Origin: Branchinecta lynchi
Taxonomy: Eukaryota; Arthropoda; Branchiopoda; Anostraca; Branchinectidae
Direction of reading: 5' to 3'
Assembly: GCA_023053575.1 (NCBI GenBank)
Contig: JAKZAP010000007.1
Coordinates: forward strand, 18,079,304-18,143,303
DNA: 64,000 bases
In this document: one piece after another, positions 27,131 to 56,856 of the stretch
Layout: every line of letters begins with the position of its first letter
Position numbering within the stretch: the stretch's first letter is position 1
Program-made: the position numbers and the translations under genes
Notes under the pieces: model-generated
The model's database searches: none
What the model was told of the DNA's origin: nothing
The model's input: the letters and a program-made list of their open reading frames with translations, nothing else

Positions 27131-27137
27131 TGCCATA

Positions 27138-27177
27138 TATATATATATACCTAAGATATATATATATATATATATCT
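27138..27177. repeat. AT dinucleotide microsatellite
   Basis: Two TA runs are separated by ACCTAAG. The right-arm partner is at about 58668-58712, with different run lengths. Confidence 0.8.
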
Positions 27178-27333
27178 TTTATTTCCTTAATAGCTCGTAC
27201 AATTCACTCGCTAGCATTGGATTGTCGTACAGTTTACCACCGATACATCTCATAACACTATAAAAGACATCTTGATAATAAGTTTAAAAATTCACAGTCG
27301 ACACTTAATATATACAATTTACCTTACTAATTA

Positions 27334-29190: not shown

Positions 29191-29191
29191 G

Positions 29192-30231: not shown

Positions 30232-30705
30232 CTAGACCTACGTTGCCTGGGCAACGTGAAGTGTTGCACCAACCTTTGTTCGGCTTCGCCGACTAAAGCG
30301 TTGCGAGAGCAACACTTTGGTTTTGTTTCTTCGCTAACGGTTAAATGCTGAATTTGTCAGAATATCGGAAGTAGGGACTAAATTGACTTTGCACCCAGTT
30401 GAACTTTATCCTTTTCAATCGTAGACATCGTGACCTGTGGAAACTTGGAACATTATCTTATATAATCTAGTTGGTATTATAAAGCTATCTGTAACTTTTC
30501 AGGACCAAATACCATAGATCATCTCTCTCTCGTTCCTAGAGTATTCATTCAGCTCTCGAGCAGTTAACATCTCTCAGTTATATCAGAAAATCACACCTGA
30601 CGACAAACCATCGCTTTTCTCTCCGGCCAACGATCTCTGGACTACCTCTGATGTCACGTTTTTTGGCTCCGCCCACACGCTACTGAACTGAATTCATTTC
30701 ACGCG

Positions 30706-31819
30706 ATGCAGCCGAATAGACTTGTACAGAACGCTGTACTGAATTTTGCCGTGCGGGCGAGATCAAAAGGAAATGCGAATACCGATATCATCAAAACTGG
30801 TAGCGATTTTTTCGCCGAAGATTTGGTGAGCGAAGCGAAGAAAACGATTTGGTCTGTGGCGAGTTATGCTACTCGGCCAACCGAAAGGCAGAAAGTTGCT
30901 GATACATTTGCGGATATTTTAAAAGTTCTTGACTATTGTGACAAGAATTCAGTGGCCCTGCCGAAGTTCGTTACATATGAACCAGATGAAGTCCCTACAA
31001 TTCCTGGCGAGGCAAGCGCTACGCTAACCCGCAAGGTAAACGATTTATGCCTAGAATTCAAAAACTTTGTGTCGACAGCTAAAGCGCAGAGCCTCTGCTG
31101 CCCTTCGGCAAGTAGTGCCCCATGCCCCGCTAATCCAGTAGCTGTCAATCCCCAGCCATCCTATGCCGTTGTTCTCAAAATGCCAAAATCTCTCGATAAT
31201 CCCGATGCTCGTAAGCAGTTTTTGGACAGCGTCTGCCCCGACTCGGCCGAAATAAGTGAGTTAAGAAAGTTGAAACAGGACTGGAAACTGTACGTCAAAT
31301 CCAAATCATCTGCTGAAAAGATCGTCGAGAAAATGAAAGTTAGTAAGCCTGAGGTTTCTGCCATGCTCAAAGAGAAACTGTTTATTGCCGTTTTGAAACA
31401 GGTTCCGCCTACTATGACTCATACCGATGTAGAATCCCTTGTTCCAAGTGCATCAAAGGCAATAGAAATCGGTAACTTTGAGCGCTCCAAAGTATTCAAG
31501 CTGTATTTCGGGACCAGTAAGTATCTCAAAGACTTTCTTGCAGTCTCAGTCCGGATCGGTTATGAGAAGCTGCCTGCTGAAGAGTTCAAATTTCTCCCGA
31601 AAAGATGTTATTCCTGTCACGGAGTCGGTCACATAGCGGCCTTGCTTATTGACGCCTATATGTGGTCGCTGTGGTGCTTCTGACCACACCTCCACGAAGG
31701 ACAATATGTGCACTAAAGACACGTTCTGCCACTTATGCAAAAAGAAAGGCCACACATGCTACAATGTAAGGTGTCCAGCTAATAAGGCGATAAACAATGC
31801 TAAACCCCTACCAAAATGA
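30706..31819 (+). pseudogene. LINE-A ORF1, gag-like RNA-binding protein with zinc knuckles, one frameshift
   Basis: The frame runs 30706 to about 31637, ending with the zinc knuckle RCYSCHGVGHI. It then continues in another frame as PICGRCGASDH...CTKDTFCHLCKKKGHTC to TGA at 31817-31819. The H-to-C spacing suggests a loss of two bases near 31637. The C-terminus has three Cys/His knuckles. The stop overlaps the ORF2 start as ATGA. Both arms carry the same frameshift, so it predates the duplication. In living elements this protein packages the LINE RNA. Confidence 0.85.
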
Positions 31820-34566: not shown

Positions 34567-35634
34567 TTCTGTCTTTTGTATCTAGGTATCCATCTCGTTC
34601 TTTGTTTTTCTGTGTTAGTGTATTCTCTCGTAGTGTGTTTCTCGTTTTCTTTTTATCTTGTACTCCATCTGTTTTCACCTGATGGGAAATAAATATATAC
34701 ATACATACATACATACATAGATGCAACTCTGCTAAATATTTGGAAACTATGTCGTTGTTTTACATTATCATTTGTTTCCGTTGCGCTAACACCGTCGGAA
34801 ACCTCTCACCGCCGCAGATGATTATAGTATAACAGCCGATTGTTACTTACAAGAGTTACAAGTCCCTGACATGTCTCACAACTGGGTTCCGCCTATCTTT
34901 GTTTGAGTTTGTACCGTACCAATAAAGTTGCCAACCCCTCAAAGACTCAACTCCATGTTGCAGTGATAGACCAAGGGTACTAGTTTTCTTACCCTCAGAT
35001 TTATAGAGATATAAAAATGTGCACTAATTTTCACAAGTTTCTAGCCCCTCATGAACCCCTTCTAGCGACCGATTCTTACACAAATCCATCTCTCCGTGAT
35101 CGACATGGTACAGAATTGTTCTCACGATCAAATACACAGGAAAGAATTAATAGGATTGATAGGTACACCAACTACCAACGCTGCTAACCCCTCATCGGTG
35201 ATTATGGTCTAACAGCCGATTGTTGCTTACAAGTACTCTACATGTCTCACGATTGGGATCGGCCTATTTGGTTCCAGTGTGTACCTCACTACTGAAGTTG
35301 TCAACCCCTCCAAACTTTGAAACTGCTGTATCTCATGAAGGAATTTTTGTACCAAAAAACAGATTACATGTACTTTGATCAGCTCATCGAGGTCTACCGA
35401 ACGCCATTGAAATACAAATTTCTATCTGCCTTAGTTCAAAGTTGACTTTTTATAGTAACTTTAGATAGTCCTCTCTGACCTAGGCTCTTGTTCATTAGCA
35501 AGGTAATAACAAGTGCAATAAACCAATTCGTAGCAGACTAATGCCCCCTTTGTCACAATTCATTAAGTAAGGCATATCATCGATCATATGACAAAATATT
35601 CCAGTTTCCATCTGTTCATTAAAGATTAAAGTAA

Positions 35635-37886
35635 GTCGCGTCGTCTTATTTGTTGATGTTACACCAAATCCTCATCCATAGATATATCTCCCCAAATATA
35701 TAAGAGTCATAGACGAACTTAACTCATGGGAAATCTGGGCCCAGCTGCCCATGAACGGGAGGGGGGGGGGGGTCGGGACCCATCAAAATGCGTATCCCGA
35801 TGAAAAATTTTGAGCCTGCGTAGTAGTATGGTAGTAGTACGAAAACGTTGCACATAATACTATGTAATAGCAAAGAATACTATCATTTAATGTGCCTCAG
35901 ACTGGTCCAATCTTACGTAGTAGTATCCAGTAGCATCCTGTCTTGCCATAGTAGCATCCGGTCTTGCTAATAATAGCACATAGTAGTATGCAGTAACACG
36001 GTAGCCTTGAAGTAGAAGCATGGAGTAGCATCGTTAGTACTGCATGCTACTTTTTCTTACTACTTCACAGTACTATTTTGAGATAAATTTTTCATCGGGA
36101 TTTATACTTTTTTTCCTCAAGTATACGAGCTTAGAGTTTGATTCCAGTCACGGGTCAATAACTTTTTTCATGGGCAATTTTGGCCCCACTTGCCCATGAA
36201 CGGGGAGGGTGGGGGTGGTTAAACTCTCCCCGGTCCCTATGATCCTAAAGCACAAAGGAATTTCATCGCCTTATCTCCACTTATTGCCAAATTAAAAACA
36301 TACAAAAATGGGCAATCTGGGCCCAATTGCCCCTGAACCAAGTGGGGGTGGGGTTTGGGACCCGCAACAAGTAAAAAGAGACCCCATCACAATCCTACCA
36401 AGTTTCAACTTGATACCTGTTGATTCCTGGCAAGGGTAACGAACTTTACTCCTGGGCAATCTGGGCCCAGATGCCAATAAACGGTGTGGGTGGGGGAGGT
36501 GCAACTTTAAAAGCAAATTTCCAGACCTAGGAGCTACACTTCCAAGAAATTTCATCGTCCTATATCCAGTTCTGTTCAAGTTATGAACATTGTTCACTGT
36601 GCAATCTGGGCCCATTACCCCTGAGCCGGTTGGGTGTGGGGGGTCGGACCCACAAAAAGGCACAACTAGACCCCAATACCCACAAGTGTAGCAAGTTTGA
36701 ACTTGATACTTGCACTCGTTCACGAGTTATGAGCTCCACAAAATATGGTGGAAACCGAAAACCGAAAGCTGCTACAGCGCTCGCAATAGTGGATTGTTCC
36801 AAGGAACACTCCACTAAAAAAACAACAACAAAAAACACGACAAAACCAAAGTGTTGCTCTCGCAACACAATGACTACTGTAGCAATATGACTGCAAATGA
36901 AAATACAAATACATTTCAAACTGCAATATTTAATTTATAACTAAATACTACAAATTCTAATTTAACATTTTTTAGTGGAGTGTTCCTTGGAACAATCCAC
37001 TATTGCGGGCGCTGTAGCAGCTTTCGGCTTTCGGTTTTCACCGTATTTTGTGGAGCTCATAACTCGTGAACCAGTGCAAGTATCAAGTTTAAACTTTGTA
37101 CACGAGTGGGTATTCGGTCTAGTTGTGCCTTTTGGGAGTCCCACCTCGCCCCAACCCGGTTCAGGGGCAAATGGGCCCCGATTGCACAGTGAATAATGTT
37201 CATAACTTGACCAGAACTGGACATAGGACGATCAAGTTCGTTGTAAATGTAGATCCTAGGGCTAGGAAATTGTTTCTAAAGTTGCACCTCCCCCACCCAC
37301 TCCGTTCATGGGCAACTGGGCCCAGATTACTCAGGACTAAACTTCGTTACCCGTGACAGGAATCAACAGGTGTCAAGTTGAAACTTGGTAGGTTTGTGAG
37401 CATTAGAGTCTCTTTTTTACTTTCTGCGGGTCCCTACTCCCAAACTTCACTCCCACTTCAGGGGCAATTGGGCCCAGATTGCCCATTTTTCATGTTCTAA
37501 CTTGACAATGACTGGAGGTAAGGCGATGAAATTCCTTTGTGCTTTAGGATCATGGTGGTTCGGGATTATATGTGGAGCTGAACCCCCCCCCCCCCCCCCC
37601 CCCCCACCCTCCCCGTTCATGGGCAAGTGGGCCCAAATTGCCCATGAACACATTTTTTGACCCGTGACTGGACTCTAAGCTGGTATACTTGAGGAGAAAG
37701 AGGTACAAATACGCATTTTGATTGGTCCCGACCCCCCCCCCCCCCCCTCCCTCCCGTTCATAGGCCCAGATTTCCCATGAGTTAATTTCGTCTGTGACAG
37801 GTCTCAAGTTCAACTCTTGTATATTTGGGGAGTTATATCTATGGATGAGGATTTTGATTTAACAGCAACAAATAAGACGACACGAC
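35635..37886. repeat. 2.2-kb inverted repeat, two head-to-head copies of a GTGGAGTGTTCC element
   Basis: Copy 1 is inverted (36823-35640) and copy 2 direct (36968-37886), with a 144-bp loop. Each starts with the hairpin GTGGAGTGTTCCTTGGAAC, then TTTCGGTTTTC...TTTGTGGAGCTCATAAC, and has ~180-bp units with TGGGCCCAGATTGCCC and long G or C runs. Copy 1 has an extra MITE at 35796-36099. The loop contains the 5' terminus of Helitron D. Open frames here are repeat translations. Confidence 0.75.
35796..36099. mobile_element. 304-bp MITE with CCCGATGAAAAATTT TIRs
   Basis: Perfect 15-bp TIRs are flanked by AT on both sides. The sister copy of the host repeat (37705-37715) lacks it and gives the empty site. 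The interior is rich in TAGTAGTA and is not coding. Confidence 0.75.
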
Positions 37887-38113: not shown

Positions 38114-40753
38114 TCAACGCAACGCATCGGACAAAGTGTGCTTTATGGAATAAATTTTTGAAAAAAATGTTTCCCGTTTCTTTTTCAAAATATCAATGGG
38201 GTTTTTTAAACCATAATTATCCATCATAAAAGAACTGGATTGGTATTTCGAAAACCGGCATAAAAATTTCCCAAAATTAAAAAAAGTAGTTTTGATACGC
38301 GATAAATTTGATAACGTTAAAAAGGGTAAAAAAGAAGATGCAAGCAAAGCCTGTGGAAGAGCAACAGTGTTAAAAATCTTTGCAAGATTGCGTCTAGATA
38401 GGAAATCCCTAAGACAAATCACCGCCCCGAAACTAGCAGAAATACGCGACTCCACATCTTTTACTATTAGAGCCCTCGTTAATGTCAAAGTCGGGCCATA
38501 AGGGATTCCCAGATATCTCAAAGACTCACATGGTTTTAGGATTGAATTACTTATACGGACAGATACTGAAAGAGAAATTTGTTCAAGGTGTTTTGGACCA
38601 AAAACCATAAACTGGCATTTTTCAGGTCGAAAAATCAGGCCATATTCATTAAAAGACTTAACTAGATAATTTACATTATTCTGAAGGCCCGATAGAGAAC
38701 GGCTAATAAGGAGTATGTCGTCAGCATACGCTATAAGAGAAGCTAGGATACCTTTACCATAAATAAAAGAAGACTGTACACCATCAAGACATGTAGCGAT
38801 AGTTATATTGAAAATCACTGGAGAAAGAATCCCACCCTGACGAAGACCCCGGTTTAGAACAACATCAAAATCAGTGAAAGAACCCTTCCAAAGAACTCTA
38901 ATTCGAGAAGCTCCAAACCACCGACGCAACATGAGTACTATACTCACTGGTACACCATTCTTCAACAAAGATCTAAGGGCCCAAGCGTGGATGATACTAT
39001 CGTATGCAGAAGCAATGTCTAGGGCTAATACATATATTCTATTACTATAACTACAAGAACTCAAAATACGAGACAGAAGAGTGTGAGCTACATCAATATT
39101 CAACCCTTTCCTGAAACCAATTTGATTCAGACCTTGATTAGAACTACCAAAATACGGGAGGAGTGTTAGCTCAAAAAGTTTACTCATTTGACAAGAAGTA
39201 GTTATTGGACGGAAAGATTTACAATCATTTGGGTTACCTCCTTTCTTTAATAGGGGGGTAGTTGTGGATTTTAAAAAACTCGACGGAACCAAACCTGACT
39301 TAAGTATAAAAGTAAACAGGGATGCAATCATAATAATAGTATTGTGTGAAGCCCATTTTAGATGATTAGCATGTAAACCATCACAATCTAAAGATTTTTT
39401 GCTTTTCAGTTTTCTTATAGCTTCTTTTACATCATCTACTTCAATTTTAATATCCGATATTACATGCTTAGACAATTCTTCTTCAAATTCAGAATCAAGT
39501 TTACAATGTATCGTCTCATCAATTCTAGAAAAAGTACCATTAAAATGAGCAATCCAATTATCAGCCCCAAGACTACTTTTATCATGCGGGTGCTTTCTAT
39601 GTGACTTATTTCTCACAAATTTCCACAGCTCATCTTCATCTTCAGAAATACGATATCCAATTTCATCCCGAATAAAATCATTGTGAAATCTTAATTCCTT
39701 GCGGAACAGCGATTTAGAAGCTTTCATACCATCAAAAAAAGGACCAAACCTTGGGCTTCCCGCTGAACGCCACAGACGAAACGCACAAGAGGCTTTCGTG
39801 TTTGCATCTTTTAATAACTCATTAAATTTCCATGCAAACACTCGTGTTCCCGGGTAAAAAGATCTACTATTAAAAGCATTTTTCGCTCCTTCTTTCATAC
39901 AATGGACCAATTCAGCATAAAAAATATCTATATCAACTTGATCAAGACATGTTTTTTTGTCGACAATTTTTAACAGCATTTTATCCGTTTCAACGTGATA
40001 AATTTGAATTCTCTTTTTATCCCAATCCAAACATGTACATTTTTTAGAACGGACTATATTACTCGTAATGGATAATACGGGGATGGGAATAACAAGAGTA
40101 AACGACAGGTAAAGATGATCACTAATAGGGATATCAGCACAAACACCAACTATACTTGGACATAAATTAATATCCGAAGAAACTAGATGGTCAATATTGG
40201 ACGACGCGCCTGAATTATGAATATAAGTAGCGTCTGAATTTTTATGAATTAGAGCGTATTGAGGAAGTGCAGAAAACAACATAGATGCTCTGATATCTTG
40301 ATCATCGGTAAGGTCACAATTAAAATCCCCAACAATGATCCATTCTGACTTGTGCGGAACTCTCAACACAGCCTTAGATAGCTCAGAACATGCATAATTA
40401 AATTCGTAATCTGAATCAGTAGTATGGTAATTAGTTGGGAGGTAGCAAGTAAAAACAAAACAATTCAAAATCTTGATCGCGATGAAATATTGCGTATGAG
40501 TAAAATAAGAAGCACCAAAATTCTGACGGGTAAAAATACATATGCCTCCAGAAGGACGACCTCCAGTGGGAACCGCGGGGACAAAAAAACATGTATGATT
40601 TAATGATAAATTATGTACAATTCCAGCCGAATGATCGAGCAAATGGTGCTCTTGTAGACACATAATGTCGGCTGATGCTAGCAAATGTGATAAAGCATGG
40701 ACCTTGTTAGAAACACCGTTACTATTCAAAGAAATGACACTCAAATCACTCAT
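38114..40753 (-). CDS. LINE-B ORF2, AP endonuclease plus reverse transcriptase, intact (879 aa)
   Basis: The uninterrupted frame starts at ATG 40753. The endonuclease (1-230) has SVISLNSNG, MCLQEHH, WIIVGDFNCDLTDD and PISDHLYLSF, the expected Asn, Glu, Asp/Asn and His residues. The RT (about 470-780) has LKSKKSLDCDGLHANHLKW, ALDIASAYDSI, LNRGLRQGGILSP and LIAYADDILLIS (YADD near 676). There is no RNase H. It would nick target DNA and copy the element RNA by target-primed reverse transcription in the nucleus. Its start overlaps the ORF1 stop (ATGA). The clade is not assigned; I-, Jockey- and CR1-like groups fit the layout. Confidence 0.93.
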   Translation of the reverse strand: MSDLSVISLNSNGVSNKVHALSHLLASADIMCLQEHHLLDHSAGIVHNLSLNHTCFFVPAVPTGGRPSGGICIFTRQNFGASYFTHTQYFIAIKILNCFVFTCYLPTNYHTTDSDYEFNYACSELSKAVLRVPHKSEWIIVGDFNCDLTDDQDIRASMLFSALPQYALIHKNSDATYIHNSGASSNIDHLVSSDINLCPSIVGVCADIPISDHLYLSFTLVIPIPVLSITSNIVRSKKCTCLDWDKKRIQIYHVETDKMLLKIVDKKTCLDQVDIDIFYAELVHCMKEGAKNAFNSRSFYPGTRVFAWKFNELLKDANTKASCAFRLWRSAGSPRFGPFFDGMKASKSLFRKELRFHNDFIRDEIGYRISEDEDELWKFVRNKSHRKHPHDKSSLGADNWIAHFNGTFSRIDETIHCKLDSEFEEELSKHVISDIKIEVDDVKEAIRKLKSKKSLDCDGLHANHLKWASHNTIIMIASLFTFILKSGLVPSSFLKSTTTPLLKKGGNPNDCKSFRPITTSCQMSKLFELTLLPYFGSSNQGLNQIGFRKGLNIDVAHTLLSRILSSCSYSNRIYVLALDIASAYDSIIHAWALRSLLKNGVPVSIVLMLRRWFGASRIRVLWKGSFTDFDVVLNRGLRQGGILSPVIFNITIATCLDGVQSSFIYGKGILASLIAYADDILLISRSLSGLQNNVNYLVKSFNEYGLIFRPEKCQFMVFGPKHLEQISLSVSVRISNSILKPCESLRYLGIPYGPTLTLTRALIVKDVESRISASFGAVICLRDFLSRRNLAKIFNTVALPQALLASSFLPFLTLSNLSRIKTTFFNFGKFLCRFSKYQSSSFMMDNYGLKNPIDILKKKRETFFSKIYSIKHTLSDALR

Positions 40754-41907
40754 TTCTTACTTTTATTTGCTTGCTCCTTGATCACTTTGCATCGGAAACT
40801 GTACCCTGGGTGTTCCGAAGATCCGCAATGGCAGCAATTGAAAGCCTTAAGACATGGGCTATCACGAGTATTCGTATGATCTGAACCCGAACACCTAGCA
40901 CACCGAATTGAGTTCTTGCAAGCTGCAGACATGTGCTCGAGAGATCCGCACTTAAAACACATTTTTGGCAGCGACTTAAACTCGGTAACAGCAAAGTGCT
41001 CATACCCGACAAAAACACCGTGTCGCAGGTGGTAAGACTTTGAACTCGAAGACTCGAAGAATACCTTGTAGCAACTGGAAGAACCGATCTGCGTGGCATC
41101 AATGATACCTTTGTTTTGGCTTTTGAGCATATCCGGATTAAAATCAAAGGTGACACTGATCAGGCCGATGTACTTTTGAAGACGGATTTCTACACTGGGA
41201 CCCACTTTCTCACTCAGACTTCTTTTTAGTATTTCAGCTGATGACTTCTTAGTTTGAATTTTCCAGTTTCTGTCCTTCGAAACCGTAACTCTGTGTATCC
41301 CGTCAGCCCCACTTAACTGTTCTAAAATTTCTCTCCGTTTATATGGGTTGTCAAACTCGGGAGGGGGGGACTGGACGTGAATATTCACCATATCGTTCGC
41401 GCTAGATTCCATCCTCGGCCACTCTACTGAATTGGTTGATTCAGCAGGAGGCGGTCGATTCTTCTGGAACTGCTTTATCTCGCTGACGTCCGAAATCAGT
41501 TTATCCCACGAATTGACAGTGCATGGGTTTGCTAACTCCAGCGATGTTAATTGTTCAACTTTTTCCGAAACATACTTGAGTTGACGATCCCACGAATGCA
41601 GCGCCTTTGTAAAATTTGCATGTTCGGTTGAGCCGGCTACTGGGATTAGGTCACCAGCAAACATGACGTATTTTGGCAGTTTCCCAGGCAATTCATTCGC
41701 ATCAGCCAGAACGAACAACGAGAATATATCGTCACATAATGAACTGGATGCATTTGCGCCACGGCGTTCGGGATAACGAGTAGTTGAATTAGCAGCCGAG
41801 ATGATCAGAGAACGGGCATTATTTAGATCGTCAAGCTTGTAGAACCTGGAGGCTGCCGACACCGAATCATTTTTATCAGTTCCTGATGAAACGCAATTTT
41901 GGAAGAA
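40750..41907 (-). CDS. LINE-B ORF1, C-terminal part (385 codons plus stop), zinc knuckles
   Basis: This is the larger piece of an ORF1 cut by the 41917-46323 insertion. It runs from FFQNC just after the TSD to TGA at 40752-40750. An ATG is lacking near the front because the true N-terminus lies at 46631-46323. The C-terminus has three Cys/His knuckles: CFKCGSLEHMSAAC, CARCSGSDH and CCHCGSSEHPGYSFRC. The central part has an RNA-recognition-like stretch near DGIHRVTVSKDRNWKIQTKK. It is an RNA-binding chaperone in this element class. Confidence 0.88.
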   Translation of the reverse strand, partial: FFQNCVSSGTDKNDSVSAASRFYKLDDLNNARSLIISAANSTTRYPERRGANASSSLCDDIFSLFVLADANELPGKLPKYVMFAGDLIPVAGSTEHANFTKALHSWDRQLKYVSEKVEQLTSLELANPCTVNSWDKLISDVSEIKQFQKNRPPPAESTNSVEWPRMESSANDMVNIHVQSPPPEFDNPYKRREILEQLSGADGIHRVTVSKDRNWKIQTKKSSAEILKRSLSEKVGPSVEIRLQKYIGLISVTFDFNPDMLKSQNKGIIDATQIGSSSCYKVFFESSSSKSYHLRHGVFVGYEHFAVTEFKSLPKMCFKCGSLEHMSAACKNSIRCARCSGSDHTNTRDSPCLKAFNCCHCGSSEHPGYSFRCKVIKEQANKSKK

Positions 41908-41957
41908 GCTAAGGACCGAGGGGTTGCGCGCTGGTGCCTCATGGTGTACAAGTTCCC

Positions 41958-42066
41958 TGCCTCATGCCTGCCTCACGTGCCTCATGTCTGCCTCACGTGC
42001 CTCATGCCTGCCTCACGTGCCTCATGCCTGCCTCACGTGCCTCATGCCTGCCTCACCTGCCTCATC
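41958..42066 (+). repeat. 20-bp minisatellite with CACGTG, left array
   Basis: There are about five units of CTGCCTCACGTGCCTCATGC; four have CACGTG and one CACCTG. It lies about 40 bp inside the left TIR. The unit period and unit sequence match the right array in the same orientation. The open frames across it are repeat translations. Confidence 0.9.
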
Positions 42067-42616: not shown

Positions 42617-45299
42617 TTGTGTTGCGAGAGCAACACTTTGGTTTTGTCCTGTTTTTTTTTTTTTTTTTTTTTCCCTATGCCGCCGATTTCATTTCATTCC
42701 TGGTAATTGGTAAGGGTCTAACCTGTGCGGTTTTTACGGAAAGTGTGGACCTTAGGCCGGATTGATGAATATGACATTACATTTTGGAAAGCTCCGTAGA
42801 ACTCTTGCCTGGGGCCAAAAAGGATGGTTATCTGAAGTTGTGCAGCCAACCTTTCGTTTCATCAAACCATGTTTCTGCTTTCGAGTGGAAAGCTCCGCTT
42901 TAGCACGCAAGCAGGCAGGCACCAGTTTCAAATTGAAGATGGATTAAAATCTGGTGTTAAATATAGTGTTAGATCTGGTTAAAAATCTAAAAAACATCTG
43001 GTAAATATAGTGTTAAAATCTGGTTTAAATATAAGTGTTAAATATATGCGGCAGTTACCCGGCCCCATAGCCAACATATCTTCTTTGAGTGATAAATAGA
43101 AAAATCTAGAGCAAATCAAAAAGTGACTTTTTACCACGGGTCCGAAAGTGCTGCCATCTATTTTTTCTATCCATTTGTGTTCGCGATTTCAGCTGAGTTT
43201 ATCATTCGTTTTTTTGCGCTTGGGTGTGCGGTAGAGAAATGGTATCAGATGTACATCTTAAACTTTAGAACTTCTCTCCTTGCTAAAGAAATTGGAGCTT
43301 ATCCTTAGCTCCTTTCTAAGTGGTGACGTTAGAAAGTTGGCCTACGGCAAAAAAGTCAACTCTTGAACTAAGACAGGTAGAATTTTTTTTCAACGGCAAT
43401 CGATAGCCGTTGATGAGCTGATCAAAATATATGGCATCCGTTTTTTGGTACAAAGATTCCTTCGTGAGATACACCAGTTTGAAAGTTTCAAGGGGTTGAC
43501 AACTTCAGTAGGAATGTACACACGAAACCAACAATAGGCGATACCAGCTGTGAGACATGTAGGGGACTTATAGGCGACAGTCGATATATGTTAGCTCATA
43601 ATCATCTTCGGCAATGAGGGGTTTGCAGCTTTTGCCAGTTGGTGTATCTGTGATTTGTTTCCGGTGTATTCGATGGTAAGAACAATTTGGTTCCCAATTG
43701 TAAACATGTAAGGGACTTGTAAGTAATAATCGGCTGTTATGCTACAAAAATCTTCAGCGATGAGGGGTTTGCAACTTTTGCTACCTGGTGTACCCATTAT
43801 TTTTATCCGGTAAACTTGATGTCTATCATGGGAGACGGACTTGTAAGTAAGAATCGGTTCACGAGGGGCTTGAATTTTGTGCAAATTGTTGCATATTGTA
43901 TTCGATTTATATAAATCTGACGGTAAGAAAGTTTGTATCGATGGTCTATCGCTGTAACCTAGGATTAACTGTTTCCGCAACGGGTACAAACGATCATGTA
44001 AAACAATGAGGTAGTTTCGTAATAATTAATAGTGTCATCTATGGTATTTTAATCCTGAAAAGTTAAAGATAACTTTATAATACCAACTAGATTATATGAG
44101 ATATTGTTCCAAGTTTTCATCCGTCACGGTGTCTACGATTGAAAAGGATAAAGTTCAACTGACTACGAAGTCAATTTAGTCCCTTTTCCCGATATTCTTT
44201 TGTTGTTGTTAGGGCAATCGATAGCCCTTGATGAGCCGATCAAAGTATATATCATCCATTTTTTTTAACAAAAATCCTTCATGAGATAAACCAGTTTGAA
44301 AGTTTCAAGGGGTTGACAACTTCAGGAGTAAGGTACACACTGAAACCAAAAACCAGGCGATACCAGTCGTGAGACATGTAAGGGACTAGTAAGCAACAGT
44401 CAACTGTTAGCTCATAATCATCTTCGGCAATGAGGAGTTTGCAGCTTTTGCTAGTTGGTGTACCTGTTATTTGTTTCCGGCGTATTCGATGGTAAGAACA
44501 CTTTTGTTCCCAATTGTAAGACATGCATGGGGCTTGGAAGTAATAATCGTCTGTTATGCTACCTGTTATTTGTTTCCGGTGTATTCGATGGTAAGAACAC
44601 TTTTGTTCCCAATTGTAAGACATGCATGGGACTTGTAAGTAATAATCGGCTGTTATGCTACAATCATCTTCAGCGATGAGGGGTTTGCAACTTTTGGTAG
44701 CTGGTGTACCCATTATTTGTTTCCCGTGAACTTGATTTCTATCACGGGAGAGGGACTTGTAAGTAGGAATCGGTTCACGAGGGGCTAGAAATTTTTGCAA
44801 ATTAGTGCACATTGTATTCGATTTCTGTAAATATGACGGTAAGAAAGTTTGTATCGATGGTCTATCACTATAACCTAGGATTAACTGTTTACGCAAGGGG
44901 TACAAACGATAATGTAAAACAATGAGGTAGTTTCGTAATAATTGATAGCGTCATCTATGGTATTTTAATCCTGAAAAGTTAAGGATAGCTTTATAAGACC
45001 AACTAGATTATATAAGATATTGTTCCAAGTTTTCATCCGTCACGATGTCTACGGATTGAAAAGGATTAAGTTCAACTGACCGCAAATTCAATTCAGTCCC
45101 TTCTTCCGATATTGTTTTATTGTTGTTTTTACAACGCTAAAGAATATCTTTTAATTGATCATGTGATCCTTCTTTTTAGAACAAACCGTTTTAAAAGCTT
45201 CGATAAGTTGACAACTCCAGCATTTAACCGAAAGCGAAGAAACAAAACCAAAGTGTTGCTCTCGCAACACTTCACGTTGCCCAGGCAACTTAGGTCTAG
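42617..45299 (+). mobile_element. Helitron A (non-autonomous, 2.7 kb)
   Basis: The 5' end is TTGTGTTGCGAGAGCAACAC after host A (42616). The 3' end has the inverted copy CAAAGTGTTGCTCTCGCAAC, hairpin GTTGCCCAGGCAAC and CTAG at 45296-45299 before host T (45300). The inside has a gene-like segment (about 42780-43310) and ~150-bp repeated units with TGTAAGTAATAATCGGCTG and GAGGGGTTTGCA. It lacks ~37 bp present in the 3' ends of C and D. No Rep/helicase ORF. Confidence 0.88.
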
Positions 45300-46322: not shown

Positions 46323-46631
46323 GCTAAGGACTGGTGAATAAACCAGATCCGGTCTATCTCGTTCGTTGCCACAGCAAATAGGAGGCGAATCAATCATTGG
46401 GTCTAATGCCGTTGGGCCATGGCTAACGTCTTCTCTGACTATCGGCTTGGCCGAGCAGGGGTTGCACAGTAGGAATGTCTGTTGGTGTTTCTCACTGTAT
46501 TGTTCTACGAGAGTGTCACACCCCTTGTGGAAAAATGTACCACAACCTCCGATCAAAGAAGAGCAAATTATCGTGTCTCTGCTATTGAATTTCAGAGACG
46601 CATTACACTTGTTACATTTCGAATTACTCAT
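46323..46631 (-). CDS. LINE-B ORF1, N-terminal part with a PHD finger (103 codons)
   Basis: It starts at ATG 46631-46629. Cys6, Cys9, Cys23, Cys30, His35, Cys38, Cys56 and Cys59 form a C4-H-C3 pattern, that is, a PHD-type zinc finger. The segment ends with SPVLS, encoded in the TSD. The same codon phase resumes at 41907, so ORF1 would be 488 residues with one TSD copy. PHD fingers at the front of LINE ORF1 proteins are known in CR1-like elements; in host proteins they read histone tails. Beyond 46323 the apparent frame is transposon sequence. Confidence 0.85.
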
Positions 46632-49600
46632 TGTGTTGCGAGAGCAACACTTTGGTTTTGTCCTCGTTTTTTTTTTTTTTTTTTTTTTTTCCTATGACTC
46701 CGATTTCATTTTATTCCTGGTAACTGAGAAGGGTCTAACCTGTGCGGTTTTTACGGAAAGTGTGGACCTTAGGCCGGATTGATGAATATGACATTACATT
46801 TTGGAAAGCTCCGTAGAACTCTTGCCTGGGGCCAATAAGGATGGTTTTTGCTTGTCATCGAGCCAGAGCCTACGGTTTGCGAAGTGAAGTGGAGTTGTAT
46901 AGCCTATGTCAGAGAGGACTATCTGAAGTTGTGTAGCGAACCTTTCGTTTCATCAAAAGATGTTTCTGCTTTCGAGTGGAAAGCTCCGTTCTAGCACGCA
47001 AGCAGGCAGGCACCAGTTTCAAATTGAAGATGGACTAAAATCTATAAGTGTTAAATATATGCGGCAGTTACCCGGCCCCACAGCCAACATATCTTCTTTG
47101 AGTGATAAATAGAAAAATCTACAGAGACAAAAAAGTGGCTTTTTCCCACGGGTCCGAAAGTGCTGCCATCTATTGTTTCTGTCCATGTCTGCGACGATTT
47201 CAGCTGAGTTTATAATTTTTTTTTTTTGCACTTTGGTTTGTGGTAGAGTAACGGTATCAGATGTGCCTCTTAAACTTTAAAAGTTCTCTCATTGCTAAAG
47301 AAACTAGAGCTTATCCTTTGCTCCTTTCTAAGTCGTGACGTTAGAAAGTTGGCCTACGGCAAAAAAGTCAACTTTTGAACTAAGACAGGTAGAATTTTTT
47401 TTTCGACGGCAATCGATAGCCATTGATGAGCCGATCAAAGTATATGCCATCCATTTTTTGGTACAAAAATTCCTTCATGAGATACACCAGTTTGAAAATT
47501 TCAAAGGGGTTGACAACTTCATAGTAAGGTACATTGGAACCAAAAACAGGCGATACCAGTTATGATACATATAGGGGACTTTTAAGCAACAGTCGACTGT
47601 TAGCCCATAATCATCTTCGGTAATGAGGGGTTTGCAGCTTTTGCTTGTTGGTATACCTGTTATTTGTTTCCGGTGTATTCGATGGTAAGAACAATTTGGT
47701 TCCCAATGGTAAGATATGCAAGGGACTTGTAAGTAATAATCGGCTGTTATGCTACAATCATCTTCTGCGATGATGGGTTTGCAGCTTTTGCTACCTGGTG
47801 TACCCATTATTTGTTTCCGGTTAACTTAATGTATATCACGGGAGAGGGACTTGTAAGTAGGAATCGGTTCACGAGGGGCTAGGAATTTTTGCAAATGGGT
47901 GCACATTGTATTCGATTTCTATAAATCTGACGGTAAGAAAGTTTGTGTCGATGGTCTATCAGTGTAACCGAGGATTAACTGTTTACACAACGGATACAAA
48001 CGAAAATGTAAAGCAATGAGGTAGTTTCATAATAATTAATAGGGTCATCTATAGTATTTTAATCCTGAAAAGTTACGGATAGCTTTCTATTACCAACTAG
48101 ATTATATAAGATATTGTTCCAAGTTTTCATCCGTCACGATGTCTACGATTGAAAAGGATAAAGTACAACTGACTGCAAAGTTAATTTAGTCCCTTCGTCC
48201 TATATTATTTTGTTGTTGTTTTTACAACGCTGAAGAATACCTTTTGATCATATGATTATTTTTTTTAGAACATCCCGTTTAAAAAGCTTATGCTATAATC
48301 ATCTTCAGCGATGAGGGGCTTGCAACTTTTGATAGCTGGTATATCCATTATTTGTTTCCGGTGAATTTGATGTCAGTCACGGGAGACGGACTTGTAAGCA
48401 AGAATCGGTTCACGAGAGGCTAGAAATTTTTGAAAATTGGTGCACATTGTATTCGATTTCTGTAAATATGACAGTAAGAAAGTTTGTATCGATGGTCTAT
48501 CGCTATAACCTAGGATTAACTGTTTACGCAACGGGTACAAACGATACGGTAATGTAAAACAATAAGTTAATTTTGTAATAATTAATAGTGTCATCTATGG
48601 TATTTTAATCCTGAAAAGTTACGGATAGCTTTATAATATCAACTAGATTATATAAGATATTGTTCCAAGTTTTCATCCGTCACGATATCTACGATTGAAA
48701 AGGATAAAGTTCAACTTCGACGGCAATCGATAGCCGCTGATGAGCTGATCAAAGTATATGACATCCATTTTTTGGTAAAAAAAATTCCTTTATGAGATAC
48801 ACCAGTTTGAAAGTTTCAAGGGGTTGACAACTTCAGTAGTAAGGTACACACTGAAACCAAAAATAGGCGATACCAGTTGTGAGACATTTAGGGGATTTGT
48901 ACGCGACAGGCAACTGTTAGCTCATAATCATCTTCGGCAATGAGGGGTTTGCAGCTCTCGCTAGTTGGCGTACCTGTCATTTGATGAACAATTTGGTTCC
49001 CAAATGTAAAACATGCAAGGGACTTGTAAGTAATAATCGGCTGTTATGCTACACAAATCTTCAGCGATGAGGGGTTTGCAACTTTTGCTAGTCGGTATAC
49101 CCATTATTTTTATCCGGTGAACTTGATGTCTATCACGGGAAAGGGACTTGTCAGTAGAATCGGTGCACGAGGGGCTAGAAATTAGTGCAAATTGTTGCAC
49201 ATTGTATTCGATTTATATAAATCTGACGGTAAGAAAGTTTGTATCGTTGGTCTATCGCTGTAACCTAGGATTTACTGTTAACGCAACGGGTACAAACGAT
49301 ACTGTAATGTAAAACAAGGTAGTTTCGTAATAATTAATAGTGTCATCTATGGTATTTTAATCCTAAAAAGTTACGGATAGCTTTATAATACCAACTAGAT
49401 TATATAGGATATTATTCCAAGTTTTCATCCGTCACGATGTCTACGATTGAAAAGGATAAAGTTCAACTGACTGCAAAGTCAATTTAGTCCCTTTTTCCGA
49501 TATGCTTTTGTTGTGGTTAGGGCAATCGATAGCTCTTGAAGAGCTGATCAAAATATATGCCATCAAATTTTCTGAACAAAAATCCTTCATGAGATAAGCC

Positions 49601-49731
49601 AGTTTGAAAGTTTCAAGGGGTTGACAACTTCAGGAGTAAGGTACACACTGAAACCAAAAATAGGCGATACCAGTTGTGAGACATGTAAGGGACTTGTAAG
49701 CAACATTCGACTGTAAGCAACAGTCGACTGT
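46631..49731 (+). mobile_element. Helitron B, 5' part, truncated at the arm junction
   Basis: The 5' end follows A 46630 and sits exactly at the LINE-B ORF1 ATG. The sequence follows Helitron C closely, including the poly-T tract at 46669-46690, up to CAGTCGACTGT at 49721-49731. There it switches to antisense LINE-A ORF2. Its own 3' end is missing; the CTAG at 51856 belongs to the Helitron D copy. Confidence 0.85.
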
Positions 49732-51568
49732 CACCACCTAACATAGCAAGTAACATATTAGCACGATTAGAACTTGAACAGTTGTTGCTGCTCAGGTTTT
49801 CAAGATCACAATTAAGGTCGCCAGTTATCAGACACGAAAGTCCATGCTTTTTTATTTTATCGATACACTTCGAGAGCCTTGCAACACTAATGGCAAACAG
49901 TCTATCTGACCGATCATCACGATAGTCCGTAGGGAGGTACACATTCACGACCACCATATCATGGACTCTGACAGCAAGAAAGTCTAATGCCGAATCAAAC
50001 ACAGAAGAGGATAGAGAGGATCTGGTGTAAGTTGCAAGGCCGCCGGATGGCCGGCCGTGAGTGCGAGAGCGTTTGGCTGCGACCGTAAAAACCTGATGGT
50101 TTGGTGACAGGTTCAATAAAGTAAGGCTGAGAGAGGTTGCAAAATGTTCCTGCACACACACAATATCACACCATGAAAGAAGGTCCTCGAGAAAAACTGA
50201 CCGGTTAAGGAGATTTCCATTTAAATTCCACGTTACAACTGCATGCTTAGCGCGGGCGGGTTCTAGATTCATTTTGGTAGGGGTTTAGCATTGTTTATCG
50301 CCTTATTAGCTGGACACCTTACATTGTAGCATGTGTGGCCTTTCTTTTTGCATAAGAGGCAGAACGTGTCTTTAGTGCACATATTGTCCTTCGTGGAGGT
50401 GTGGTCAGAAGCACCACAGCGACCACATATAGGCGTCAATAAGCAAGGCCGCTATGTGACCGACTCCGCGACAGGAATAACATCTTTTCGGGAGAAATTT
50501 GAACTCTTCAGCAGGCAGCTTCTCATAACCGATCCGGACTGAGACTGCAAGAAAGTCTTTGAGATCCTTACTGGTCCCGAAATACAGCTTGAACACTTTG
50601 GAGCGCTCAAAGTTACCGATTTCTATTGCCTTTGATGCACTTGGAACAAGGGATTCTACATCGGTATGAGTCATAGTAGGCGGAACCTGTTTCAAAACGG
50701 CAATAAACAGTTTCTCTTTGAGCATGGCAGAAACCTCAGGCTTACTAACTTTCATTTTCTCGACGATCTTTTCAGCAGATGATTTGGATTTGACGTACAG
50801 TTTCCAGTCCTGTTTCAACTTTCTTAACTCACTTATTTCGGCCGAGTCGGGGCAGACGCTGTCCAAAAACTGCTTACGAGCATCGGGATTATCGAGAGAT
50901 TTTGGCATTTTGAGAACAACGGCATAGGATGGCTGGGGATTGACAGCTACTGGATTAGCGGGGCATGGGGCACTACTTGCCGAAGGGCAGCAGAGGCTCT
51001 GCACTTTAGCTGTCGACACAAAGTTCTTGAATTCTAGGCATAAATCGTTTACCTTGCGGGTTAGCGTAGCGCTTGCCTCGCCAGGAATTGTAGGGACTTC
51101 ATCTGGTTCATATGTAACGAACTTCGGCAGGGCCACTGAATTCTTGTCACAATAGTCAAGAACTTTTAAAATATCCGCAAATGTATCAGCAACTTTCTGC
51201 CTTTCGGTTGGCCGAGTAGCATAACTCGCCACAGACCAAATCGTTTTCTTCGCTTCGCTCACCAAATCTTCGGCGAAAAAATCGCAACCAGTTTTGATGA
51301 TATCGGTATTCGCATTTCCTTTTGATCTCGCCCGCACGGCAAAATTCAGTACAGCGTTCTGTACAAGTCTATTCGGCTGCATCGCGTGAAATGAATTCAG
51401 TTCAGTAGCGTGTGGGCGGAGCCAAAAAACGTGACATCAGAGGTAGTCCAGAGATCGTTGGCCGGAGAGAAAAGCGATGGTTTGTCGTCAGGTGTGATTT
51501 TCTGATATAACTGAGAGACGTTAACTGCTCGAGAGCTGAATGAATACTCTAGGAACGAGAGAGAGATG
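49731..51568 (-). pseudogene. LINE-A copy in the right arm, 3' half missing
   Basis: ORF2 starts at ATG 50272 and is cut after residue 180 or so at 49731. ORF1 runs from 51382 with the same knuckle frameshift as the left copy (near 50450) and has a few substitutions (for example Cys for Ser in KTGxDFF). The ATGA overlap is kept. The 5' flank ATCTATG at 51569-51575 matches the TSD of the left copy. Confidence 0.88.
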
Positions 51569-51856
51569 ATCTATGGTATTTGGTCCTGAAAAGTTACAGA
51601 TAGCTTTATAATACCAACTAGATTATATAAGATAATGTTCCAAGTTTCCACAGGTCACGATGTCTACGATTGAAAAGGATAAAGTTCAACTGGGTGCAAA
51701 GTCAATTTAGTCCCTACTTCCGATATTCTGACAAATTCAGCATTTAACCGTTAGCGAAGAAACAAAACCAAAGTGTTGCTCTCGCAACGCTTTAGTCGGC
51801 GAAGCCGAACAAAGGTTGGTGCAACACTTCACGTTGCCCAGGCAACGTAGGTCTAG
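51569..51856 (+). mobile_element. 3' end of the Helitron D copy, right arm
   Basis: This contains the subterminal inverted repeat CAAAGTGTTGCTCTCGCAAC, the palindrome-rich GGCGAAGCCG segment, hairpin GTTGCCCAGGCAAC and CTAG at 51853-51856, followed by C as in the left arm. Confidence 0.85.
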
Positions 51857-53077: not shown

Positions 53078-56000
53078 TTGTGTTGCGAGAGCAACACTTT
53101 GGTTTTGTCCTCGTTTTTTTTTTTTTTTTTTTTTTTCCTATGACTCCGATTTCATTTTATTCCTGGTAACTGAGAAGGGTCTAACCTGTGCGGTTTTTAC
53201 GGAAAGTGTGGACCTTAGGCCGGATTGACGAATATGACATTACATTTTGGAAAGCTCCGTAGAACTCTTGCCTGGGGCCAATAAGGATGGTTTTTGCTTG
53301 TCATCGAGCCAGAGCCTACGGTTTGCGAAGTGAAGTGGAGTTGTATAGCCTATGTCAGAGAGGACTATCTGAAGTTGTGTAGCGAACCTTTCGTTTCATC
53401 AAAAGATGTTTCTGCTTTCGAGTGGAAAGCTCCGTTCTAGCACGCAAGCAGGCAGGCACCAGTTTCAAATTGAAGATGGACTAAAATCTATAAGTGTTAA
53501 ATATTTGCGGCAGTTACCCGGCCCCACAGCCAACATATCTTCTTTGAGTGATAAATAGAAAAATCTACAGAGACAAAAAAGTGGCTTTTTCCCACGGGTC
53601 CGAAAGTGCTGCCATCTATTGTTTCTGTCTATGTCTGCGACGATTTCAGCTGAGTTTATAATTTTTTTTTTTTGCACTTTGGTTTGTGGTAGAGTAACGG
53701 TATCAGATGTGCCTCTTAAACTTTAAAAGTTCTCTCATTGCTAAAGAAACTAGAGCTTATCCTTTGCTCCTTTCTAAGTCGTGACGTTAGAAAGTTGGCC
53801 TACGGCAAAAAAGTCAACTTTTGAACTAAGACAGGTAGAATTTTTTTTTCGACGGCAATCGATAGCCATTGATGGGCTGATCAAAGTATATGTTATCCAT
53901 TTTTTGGTACAAAAATTCCTTCAGGAGATACACCAGTTTGAAAATTTCAAAGGGGTTGACAACTTCATAGTAAGGTACATTGAAACCAAAAATAGGCGAT
54001 ACCAGTTATGATGCATATAGGGGACTTTTAAGCAACAGTCGACTGTTAGCCCATAATCATCTTCGGTAATGAGGGGTTTGCAGCTTTTGCTAGTTGGTAT
54101 ACCTGTTATTTGTTTCCGGTGTATTCGATGGTAAGAACAATTTGGTTCCCAATGGTAAGATATGCAAGAGACTTGTAAGTAATAATCGGCTGTTATGCTA
54201 CAATCATCTTCTGCGATGATGGGTTTGCAGCTTTTGCTAGCTGGTGTACCCATTATTTGTTTCCGGTTAACTTAATGTATATCACGGGAGAGGGACTTGT
54301 AAGTAGGAATCGGTTCACGAGGGGTTAGGAATTTTTGCAAATGGGTGCACATTGTATTCGATTTCTATAAATCTGACGGTAAGAAAGTTTGTGTCGATGG
54401 TCTATCAATGTAACCGAGGATTAACTGTTTACACAACGGATACAAACGAAAATGTAAAGCAATGAGGTAGTTTCATAATAATTAATAGTGTCATCTATGG
54501 TATTTTAATCCTGAAAAGTTACGGATAGCTTTCTATTACCAACTAGATTATATAAGTCACGATGTCTACGATTGAAAAGGATAAAGTACAATTGACTGCA
54601 AAGTTAATTTAGTCCCTTCTTCCTATATTATTTTGTTGTTGTTTTTACAACGCTGAAGAATACCTTTTGATCATATGATTAATTTTTTTAGAACATCCCG
54701 TTTAAAAAGCTTATGCTATAATCATCTTCAGCGATGAGGGGCTTGCAACTTTTGATAGCTGGTATATCCATTATTTGTTTCCGGTGAATTTGATGTCAAT
54801 CACGGGAGACGGACTTGTAAGTAAGAATCGGTTCACGAGGGGCTAGAAATTTTTGAAAATTGGTGCACATTGTATTCGATTTCTGTAAATATGACAGTAA
54901 GAAAGTTTGTATCGATGGTCTATCGCTATAACCTAGGATTAACTGTTTACGCAACGGGTACAAACGATACGGTAATGTAAAACAATAAGGTAATTTTGTA
55001 ATAATTAATAGTGTCATCTATGGTATTTTAATCCTGAAAAGTTACGGATAGCTTTATAATATCAACTAGATTATATAAGATATTGTTCCAAGTTTTCATC
55101 CGTCACGATATCTACGATTGAAAAGGATAAAGTTCGACTTCGACGGCAATCGATAGCCGCTGATGAGCTGATCAAAGTATATGACATCCATTTTTTGGTA
55201 AAAAAATTCCTTTATGAGATAAACCAGTTTGAAAGGTTCAAGGGGTTGACAACTTCAGTAGTAAGATACACACTGAAACCAAAAATAGGCGATACCAGTT
55301 GTGAGACTTTTAGGGGACTTGTACGCGACAGGTGACTATTAGCTCATAATCATCTTCGGCAATGAGGGGTTTGCAGCTCTCGCTAGTTGGCGTACCTGTC
55401 ATTTGATGAACAATTTGGTTCCCAAATGTAAAACTTGCAAGGGACTTTTAAGTAATAATCGGCTGTTATGCTACACAAATCTTCAGCGATTATGGGTTTG
55501 CAACTTTTGCTAGTCGGTGTACCCATTATTTTTATCCGGTGAACTTGATGTCTATCACGGGAAAGGGACTTGTCAGTAGAATCGGTGCACGAGGGGCTAG
55601 AATTTTGTGCAAATTGTTGCAAATTGTATTCGATTTATATAGATCTGACGGTAAGAAAGTTTGTATCGTTGGTCTATCGCTGTAACCTAGGATTTACTGT
55701 TAACGCAACGGGTACAAACGATACTGTAATGTAAAACAAGGTAGTTTCGTAATAATTAATAGTGTCATCTATGGTATTTTAATCCTAAAAAGTTACGGAT
55801 AGCTTTATAATACCAACTAGATTATATAGGATATTATTCCAAGTTTTCATCCGTCACGATGTCTACGATTGAAAAGGATAAAGTTCAACTGACTGCAAAG
55901 TCAATTTAGTCCCTTTTTCCGATATGCTTTTGTTGTGGTTAGGGCAATCGATAGCCCTTGAAGAGCTGATCAAAATATATGCCATCCATTTTTTTGAACA

Positions 56001-56856
56001 AAAATCCTTCATGAGAAGGATTTTTCAGGGGGTTGACAACTTTAGGAGTAAGGTACACACTGAAACCAAAAATAGGCGATACCAGTTGTGAGACATGTAA
56101 GGGACTTGTAAGCAACAGTCGACTGTAAGCAACAGTCGACTGTTAGCTCATAATCATCTTCGGCAACGAGGAGTTTGCAGCTTTTGCTAGTTGGTATACC
56201 TGTTATTTGTCTCAGGTGTATTCGATGGTAAGAACAATTTTGTTCCCAATTGTAAGACATGCATGGGACTTGTAAGTAATAATCGGATTTTATGCTATAA
56301 TCATCTTCAGCGATGAGGGGTTTGCAACTTTTGATAGCTGGTGTATCCATTATTTGTTTCCGGTGAATTTGATGTCAATCACGGGAGAGGGACTTGTAAG
56401 TAAGCACGAGGGGCTAGACATTTTTGAAAATTGGTGCATATTGTATTCGATTTCTGTAAATATGACAGTAAGAAAGTTTGTATCGATGGTCTATCGCTAT
56501 AACCTAGGATTAACTGTTTACGCAACGGGTACAAACGATACGGTAATGTAAAACAATAAGGTAGTTTTGTAATAATTAATAGTGTCATCTATGGTATTTT
56601 CATCCTGAAACGTTACGGATAGCCTTCTTCCGATATTGTTTTGTTGTTGGTTTTACAACGCTAAAGAACATCTTTTGATTAAGTGATTATTCTTTTTAGA
56701 ACATACCGTTTTAAAAGCTTCGATAAGTTGACAATTTCAGCATTTAACCGACAGCGAAGAAACAAAACCAAAGTGTTGCTCTCGCAACACTTTAGCCGGC
56801 GAAGCCGGACAAAGGTTGCCGCAACACTTCACGTTGCCCGGGCAACGTAGGTCTAG
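53078..56856 (+). mobile_element. Helitron C (non-autonomous, 3.78 kb) with a documented empty site
   Basis: The host sequence ATTCTTA is followed by TTGTGTTGCGAGAGCAACAC. The 3' end has the inverted copy, GCCGGCGAAGCCGG, hairpin GTTGCCCGGGCAAC, GTAGGT and CTAG, then host TTTATC. The left arm (28984/28985) reads straight through, so insertion was between A and T without target duplication, the Helitron rule. It has internal ~150-bp repeats and the gene-like segment at 53350-53780, and no Rep/helicase. It closely resembles Helitron B. Confidence 0.93.

Follow-up and report, generated by a model that had tools for sequence, protein, structure and literature searches.

A stretch of 64,000 nucleotides from the fairy shrimp Branchinecta lynchi (assembly GCA_023053575.1, contig JAKZAP010000007.1, positions 18,079,304 to 18,143,303 of the forward strand; hereafter the window) contains a 3,779-bp insertion, element C, whose ends combine features of different groups of rolling-circle transposons. 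This raises the question of which group the element belongs to and which proteins move it. The window is part of a 576-Mb genome in 216 contigs and is eukaryotic judging by its genes. Element C is probably a non-autonomous, HINE-like rolling-circle element of the Helentron/Helitron2 branch that uses proteins from an endonuclease-bearing Helentron lineage. A first-pass annotation of the window had called it a Helitron; the rolling-circle type stands, while the label gives way to a HINE-like element of the Helentron/Helitron2 branch in light of a coding copy with helicase and endonuclease. Contigs (C1, C4), loci (L006) and proteins (P0003) are labelled where they must be told apart.

Insertion and target site

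Element C and the other family copies of the window are as follows.

53078 to 56856, plus strand: element C, probably non-autonomous and HINE-like, TTGTG...GGTCTAG, 3,779 bp (sequence, arm alignment and empty site)
28983 to 28984, minus strand: empty site of element C in the mirror (left) arm (arm alignment and joined-flank match)
42617 to 45299, plus strand: copy A, same family, tca|TTGTG...CTAG|ttttt, inverted repeat ending 29 bp from the 3' end (sequence and repeat comparison)
46631 to 51856, plus strand: copy B, chimeric, bases 1-3101 99.4% like genomic copy L010 and the remainder common with copy D at 99.6% (sequence comparison)
30232 to 36870, minus strand: copy D, tca|TTGTG...CTAG|cttgt, with frames of a non-long-terminal-repeat (non-LTR) element inside at 30652-34440 (sequence and frame analysis)

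The window carries a large inverted duplication. Element C lies in its right arm and is missing at 28983/28984 in the left arm. The reverse complement of the left arm reads ...GATTCTTA|TTTATCTAATAATG..., and the right arm reads ...GATTCTTA[TTGTG...GGTCTAG]TTTATCTAATAATG.... In the arm alignment, 24807-28984 pairs with 61042-56857 and 28983-32357 with 53079-49731. The joined flanks of element C (400 bp) align gap-free to the empty site at 99.75% identity, which confirms the insertion reported in the first-pass annotation. Beside the element, the arms differ by 10 substitutions in 4,174 aligned bases and 13 in 3,349, with seven gaps of 2-3 bases and one of 26. Because the arms differ so little here, element C was most simply inserted after the arm duplication.

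The annotation had also held that the empty site resolves the insertion to the base, and this part does not stand. The empty site, TTCTTATTTATC, fits three junctions by itself (A|T, T|T and T|T), leaving an ambiguity of two bases, because the element starts with TTG and its 3' flank with TTT. The junction is fixed by other copies. The 5' flanks were sampled from the 30 first-listed ends, all on contig C1, with an exact 30-mer that includes the TT and so imposes it. Base -1 is A in 26 of these 30 flanks and base -3 is T in 25; two of the ends, L014 and L023, have one common site. A pattern without the TT finds four 5' ends in the window, and all four carry TT. The 3' sample comprises 100 listed ends, likewise all on C1, found with a pattern that is fixed as far as AGGT and, more loosely, at the ninth base after it. 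CTAG is present in 93 of them, T follows at +1 in 99 and at +2 in 97. Eight copies traced to their 3' ends (2,337-3,822 bp) all read CTAG|T.

The exceptional copies assign the TT. L075, which was read over its whole 966 bp, has the form tta|TTGTG...CTAG|tgctt, and copy D has an A|C junction (tca|TTGTG...CTAG|cttg) with TT kept at its 5' end. Two more end pairs on C1, 9250260 with 9256121 (A|C) and 18404817 with 18401108 (A|TA), are probably each a single element. Because the 5' TT persists where the target has no TT, it is the element's own. The family therefore starts with TT, ends with CTAG and enters TNA|TT without target duplication, the insertion point lying before the target TT (exceptions A|TG and A|C).

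Twelve full copies, four from the window and eight from elsewhere in the genome, were screened for empty sites within the fetched sequence. Element C, L006 and L012 have gap-free paralogous empty sites without duplication. Five paralogs are aligned to the L006 site, four reading GA|TT and one GG|TT; the L012 site is a single 88% paralog inside L012's own 5' flank. The site shared by copy A, L014 and L023 has a consistent but diverged empty site with AG where the flank has TT, and that of L010 is partial. The fetched sequence yielded no empty site for L019, L021, L022 or copy B, and the match for copy D was its own 5' flank. None of the empty sites recovered for the 12 copies shows a target duplication. 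The earlier claim of an insertion without duplication holds at the empty sites of element C, L006 and L012, and most sampled copies show neither duplications nor variable ends.

The inverted duplication itself extends at least over 5139-32357 and 49731-84000 in window numbering, the latter partly in L002 and L004. Its outer stretches are 95-97% identical and those near element C 97-99%. The inner edge (49731 and 32357) falls inside two family copies. In copy B at this edge, L010-like element sequence passes into a fragment of copy D's non-LTR element; by eye, the two sequences have about one base in common at the joint.

Termini, internal repeats and family size

Element C starts with TTGTGTTGCGAGAGCAACACTTTGGTTTTGT and ends with CACGTTGCCCGGGCAACGTAGGTCTAG. 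Its parts are as follows.

53080 to 53108, plus strand: 5' subterminal repeat, 29 bp, with hairpin GTGTTGC-GAGA-GCAACAC at 53080-53097 (repeat comparison and folding)
53114 to 53136, plus strand: T run behind the 5' subterminal repeat, differing between copies (sequence and sampled copies)
53848 to 56628, plus strand: central repeats of about 0.7-0.8 kb, 82-84% alike, at 53848-54643, 55139-55940 and 55943-56628 (element coordinates 771-1566, 2062-2863 and 2866-3551; self-comparison)
56762 to 56790, minus strand: inverted copy of the 5' subterminal repeat without mismatches, 66 bp inside the 3' end (repeat comparison and hairpin fold)
56831 to 56848, plus strand: 3' terminal hairpin ACGTTGC-CCGG-GCAACGT (sequence and folding; not the minimum-energy structure of the 57-nt fold)
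56853 to 56856, plus strand: 3' terminus CTAG (sequence and genomic 3' ends)

The repeat at 53080-53108 matches the inverted 56762-56790 at 29 of 29 bp, and the distance of the inverted copy from the 3' end is 66 bp in element C and 29 bp in copy A. None of 200 shuffles folds as well as the 5' hairpin, which has a 7-bp stem (z -3.96), or as the hairpin in the inner 3' repeat (z -4.49). In a 57-nt fold, the terminal 3' hairpin belongs to the centroid and not to the minimum-energy structure (z -1.55; 14 of 200 shuffles equally good); it is present in a 101-nt fold with z of -5.45. The first-pass annotation had described a 5' TT with its own hairpin, a 3' hairpin with CTAG and an inverted copy of about 29 bp some 70 bp inside the 3' end, as in the Helitron2/Helentron branch. 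All of these are borne out, the terminal hairpin less clearly in the 57-nt fold.

This anatomy spans several groups. The exact 29-bp pair and the hairpins supply the palindromic subterminal inverted repeats and 3' palindrome of HINEs and Helentrons, as well as the asymmetric terminal inverted repeats and hairpins at both ends of Helitron2. The TT/CTAG/A|T termini are those of proto-Helentrons, and the 3' CTRR end with hairpin and the A|T insertion without duplication are those of Helitron1. The 5' TC of Helitron1 is replaced by TT at the sampled ends, and the T-rich target and variable T number of HINEs and Helentrons by TNA|TT and fixed TT...CTAG. Because a T-rich target with variable T ends was looked for and not found, element C is taken to work like a HINE without being classed as a strict one. 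Its longest stop-to-stop frame is 116 amino acids, and it has no match to the protein of the Helentron on contig C4 described below.

The family is large. The 5' 30-mer has 3,007 + 3,036 = 6,043 genome matches at up to two mismatches, a count that includes the inner inverted repeats, which lie two mismatches from the pattern. The 3' end has 1,700 + 1,785 = 3,485 matches at up to one mismatch. Backward patterns gave no match for either end, and chance is excluded for the 5' 30-mer because 6,043 matches stand against none. A DNA search with 122 bp of the 5' end found nothing, which carries no weight given that the tool passes over very common words. The median nearest-neighbour identity for 29 of the 30 sampled 5' parts is 98.3% (match lengths 117-1,531 bases), which suggests recent amplification. 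Copy A, L014/L038 and L023/L042 are alike in both flanks, the 5' side over 667-732 bp at 94.9-97.0% and the printed 3' flank similarly; by this likeness, the three probably arose by copying of a host repeat that already contained the element.

The coding copy and the source of the proteins

The link between the family and a protein lineage runs through the only coding copy with family termini that was found (C13:20346174-20357005, minus strand, 10,832 bp, gtag|TTGTG...CTAG|tttc). It was located by a helicase search match at C13:20348252-20349397, and its surroundings were then read. Its bases 1-1286 are 96% identical to L010 and its last 176 bp 97%, with central repeats up to base 2834. The coding block lies in sense orientation. 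It contains the C-terminal part of Rep and the start of a helicase (26% identical to the C4 protein), followed after an interruption by the rest of the helicase and an AP (apurinic/apyrimidinic) endonuclease-like domain (27%). The lack of an endonuclease that marks Helitron1 and proto-Helentrons is thus not seen in this single coding copy. Its AP-endonuclease-like domain is recognised via relatives: P0005, P0006 and P0007, whose alignments cover 92, 94 and 75% of the query, carry PF03372 at E 3.4e-9, 2.3e-9 and 1.8e-8, and 24 aligned sequences show a GDFN motif with hardly any variation (conserved in 90% or more).

A degenerate family-type 3' subterminal repeat stands directly before the final 176 bp of the coding copy and agrees with the terminal one at 24 of 27 bases by eye. 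Genome-wide, 15 places match its 21-mer at up to one mismatch, and one of them is exact. Given this repeat, the coding part had its own family-type 3' end, behind which stands a second, typical one, and the copy is either a decaying partner or a composite. Coding copy and degenerate repeat together partly show, at the level of sequence, a link to the endonuclease-bearing Helentron lineage.

Trees of the helicase-endonuclease region place the coding copy among endonuclease-bearing relatives. A quick tree has 32 rows and a careful one 27, the latter without P0065, P0013, P0103, P0011 and one outgroup row; rows were hand-chosen from 16 and 120 listed matches. The coding copy joins Artemia P0003 with support of 100. 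With P0005, P0006, P0007, P0091 and Crassostrea P0084, these two form a seven-row group (SH-like approximate likelihood ratio test, SH-aLRT, 94; 82/96) apart from the C4 Helentron group (96; 100/100). P0005, P0006, P0007, P0084 and P0091 are listed with PF03372. Among the matches listed, the closest named proteins by identity to the Helentron-type genes are from Artemia franciscana (78% and 83%; 78%).

Fragments of the coding lineage occur elsewhere, on C1 at 79% and on C20 at 51-67% identity. A relative lies at C20:19.042-19.047 Mb. The HUH motif, which is absent from the coding copy, reads RGWPHIH in the C1 fragment L070 and GWPHIH in P0091. In the available part of PMC4067079, Rep motif 2 of Helentrons is given as GSPHxH, with S between G and P, and Helitrons have L at this position, where L070 has W. 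L070 (C1:15486374 region) clusters with L046, L047, L050 and L051 (C1:15.31-15.46 Mb); all are broken Rep fragments related to the coding lineage, and the latter four fall into pairs that are 99.7 and 99.9% alike. Next to the broken Rep at C1:15.317 Mb (L046, L047) lies sequence with about 97% identity to the 3' flank of L010/L036, and the 5' side shares about 11 bp only.

The genome also contains Helentrons of another kind. Helitron_like_N (PF14214) has nine matches in this genome and none in 14 control genomes; the matches include intact frames of 2,787 (C4) and 2,783 amino acids (C13), a frame of 1,438 amino acids (C15) and broken pieces. The C4 frame lies within C4:9637349-9645712 on the minus strand (L043, L052, L053), with a second copy at about C13:6006933-6011231. 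It encodes an N-terminal deubiquitinase of the ubiquitin-specific protease type (PF00443, E 1.1e-21), long charged repeats, a Rep with RGSPHIH, a PIF1 helicase and an AP-endonuclease. By eye, PF00443 appears in none of 120 listed homologues, from a search limited to proteins of at most about 2,190 amino acids, and several of the 120 carry an OTU (PF02338) or herpes-tegument type domain (PF04843). By comparison with the C13:6.0-Mb copy, the C4 Helentron ends in ...GAGCTCGTAGCTCTTGTT, without CTAG. The 3' end of the intact endonuclease-bearing Helentron of another subclade in this genome reads ...AGCTCTTGTT, without CTAG.

This intact Helentron (C4; C13:6.0 Mb; shorter C15 frame) was rejected as the direct partner of the family on account of its differing 3' end and of its surroundings: in 18.6 kb around the C4 copy, whose 5' end was not reached, no family end pattern occurs at up to three mismatches, and two matches to the 5' pattern occur at four. 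A Helentron remnant at C22:5.705 Mb was also rejected, with no end match at up to four mismatches in 16.8 kb. Remnants of the C4 Rep/helicase protein were absent from L001-L042 and the window at E 1e-4.

Several observations weigh against deriving the proteins of element C from the endonuclease-bearing lineage. There is one coding copy, without the HUH part and with G in place of A as its 5' flank base, and about 2.9 kb of foreign sequence, partly related to repeats elsewhere, interrupts its helicase; its C-terminus is unlike that of Artemia P0003 by eye, and the copy may be a composite. Its endonuclease stays below the Pfam cut-offs (PF14529, E 0.0035; PF03372, E 0.042), and a sequence search of PDB with this piece gave chance-level matches only. 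Confidence is slightly reduced because the endonuclease of the nearest relative, P0003, is below cut-off too (E 0.0055 and 0.24). Genome searches recovered no intact Rep or intact copy of the coding lineage. The tree rows include no named Helitron1, Helitron2 or proto-Helentron protein, proto-Helentron-Pi included, and for this reason the trees cannot give the order of endonuclease gain and loss. Finally, four of the 30 5' flanks lack A at -1 and seven of the 100 3' termini are not CTAG, in samples that come from one contig and, on the 5' side, demanded TT.

In one alternative, the same family is mobilised by a proto-Helentron or Helitron2-type protein without endonuclease, the C13 copy having captured a gene piece of another Helentron. 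TT/CTAG/A|T termini without endonuclease and Helentron capture of gene fragments are both reported in the available part of PMC4067079, and family 5' and 3' parts do surround the coding block of the single, HUH-less copy. However, the captured piece would itself be a transposase (helicase-endonuclease), inserted in sense and ending in a degenerate family-type 3' repeat, and no endonuclease-less Rep with family ends was seen at those Rep loci, some of the total, whose surroundings were read. This alternative is unlikely.

A classical (Helitron1) non-autonomous element with a degenerate 5' end is very improbable. CTAG, a 3' hairpin 8 bp from the end, and A|T insertion without duplication would all suit it, and a TC...CTAG Helitron, lepidopteran Hel-2, may also carry a 5' inverted repeat and subterminal repeats (available part of PMC4344730). 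Yet 5' TT stands at four of four window ends found with the TT-less pattern and at the 30 genomic ends where it was required, and the 5' hairpin, long subterminal inverted repeats, central repeats and Helentron-type coding copy all point elsewhere. A GTG...CTAG DNA transposon or foldback element with a 2-bp TT target duplication has even less in its favour. The T at +1 (99/100) and +2 (97/100) of 3' flanks and the TT of 5' flanks mimic such a duplication, but L075 retains its 5' TT with TG behind CTAG, which led to rejection of a TT duplication; copy D has A|C, and the inverted repeats are subterminal and unequal. Least credible of all is an old element C lost exactly from the left arm by precise excision or gene conversion: two arms alone give no polarity, but similar paralogous empty sites exist for further copies, and rolling-circle elements are not expected to excise precisely.

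For a HINE-like element C served by the endonuclease-bearing lineage, the best-supported mechanism is rolling-circle transposition supplied in trans, as read from the literature and the anatomy of the ends. An HUH Rep would nick the 5' end at A|TT, and a helicase would peel off one strand. Pairing between the inner 3' repeat and the 5' repeat would, together with the terminal hairpin and CTAG, mark the end; such pairing at the end point has been suggested for Helitron2 (available part of PMC3627910). A single-stranded, possibly circular, copy would then be joined into a TNA|TT target.

The window also contains other features. A two-frame non-LTR element at 38114-41961 (minus strand) has an open endonuclease-reverse transcriptase frame of 880 amino acids, preceded by a frame of 403 amino acids without a Pfam match. 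A DUF1751 (PF08551) membrane-protein gene lies at the left end (417-1217, plus strand), and an ionotropic-receptor-like frame at 6445-7884 (minus strand) has PF10613 above and PF00060 below cut-off.

Comparison with known systems

Published systems are compared here as described in the available parts of the cited reports. The mix of trait sets noted in the first-pass annotation is real but partly in print already, in proto-Helentron-Pi and the mite HINEs (PMC4067079). Proto-Helentron-Pi of Phytophthora infestans shares the 5' TT, 3' CTAG, A|T insertion without duplication and a Helentron-affine protein. It is about 14 kb long, is described without endonuclease and has been proposed as a possible stage before endonuclease gain (PMC4067079), whereas the family here has an endonuclease-like domain in its coding copy and long palindromic subterminal repeats.

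HINE-Mo of the mite Metaseiulus (PMC4067079) and oyster Cg_HINE (PMC7492417) resemble element C in their subterminal inverted repeats near the 5' end, 3' palindrome, tandem repeats in the middle (in some copies in mites), non-coding nature and lack of duplication. The inner 3' repeats of HINE-Mo lie 38-60 bp inside the 3' end and are palindromic, comparable to those here (PMC4067079). Their subterminal repeats measure 11-15 bp against 28-29 bp here, and they enter T-rich or TT sites, with a T number that sometimes varies in the mite, in contrast to TNA|TT and fixed TT...CTAG.

Helitron2 and the Fusarium elements FoHeli1/2 share asymmetric terminal inverted repeats, hairpins at both ends and a 5' T (PMC3627910, PMC5148889). 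The insertion motif of FoHeli1/2, which enter behind TNAT, agrees with TNA|T here; the base that follows is A in the text and T in a legend of PMC5148889. Their 3' end is ATTTT and not CTAG, Chlamydomonas Helitron2 enters after TTTT (PMC3627910, PMC5148889), and Helitron2 is described without the endonuclease (PMC4067079) seen as an endonuclease-like domain in the coding copy. Lepidopteran Hel-2 shares 3' CTAG with hairpin, A/T flanks, a 5' inverted repeat and subterminal inverted repeats, and has a microsatellite behind the 5' repeat where element C has its T run. It differs in its 5' TC and is classed as a Helitron, with no endonuclease-bearing partner shown in the available part of PMC4344730. 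Canonical Helitron1 shares A|T insertion, a CTRR-type 3' end with hairpin and lack of duplication, and differs in its 5' TC, absence of a 5' hairpin and Rep/helicase without endonuclease (PMC4067079, PMC5148889, PMC3627910).

Among the papers listed by the literature searches, judged mostly by title and abstract opening, none was seen to describe TT/CTAG/A|T ends in an endonuclease-bearing Helentron. As far as the literature was searched, the tie of this terminus set to an endonuclease-bearing lineage, which rests on one defective coding copy, is new. It is slightly more likely than not that an endonuclease-bearing Helentron lineage uses Helitron-style termini and targets (TT...CTAG, TNA|TT, no duplication, fixed ends). 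If so, Rep and the DNA ends, and not the endonuclease, would determine the form of the termini and the choice of target, and the 'proto' terminus set would be no marker of a pre-endonuclease stage. Thomas et al. (2014) hypothesised that the endonuclease contributes to the poly-T target preference and that its cutting between Ts varies their number at the ends (PMC4067079). A TT...CTAG/TNA|TT family tied to the endonuclease lineage would uncouple the endonuclease from poly-T targets and ragged T ends and make this proposal testable, with two terminus types, the CTAG family and the C4-type Helentron, comparable within one host.

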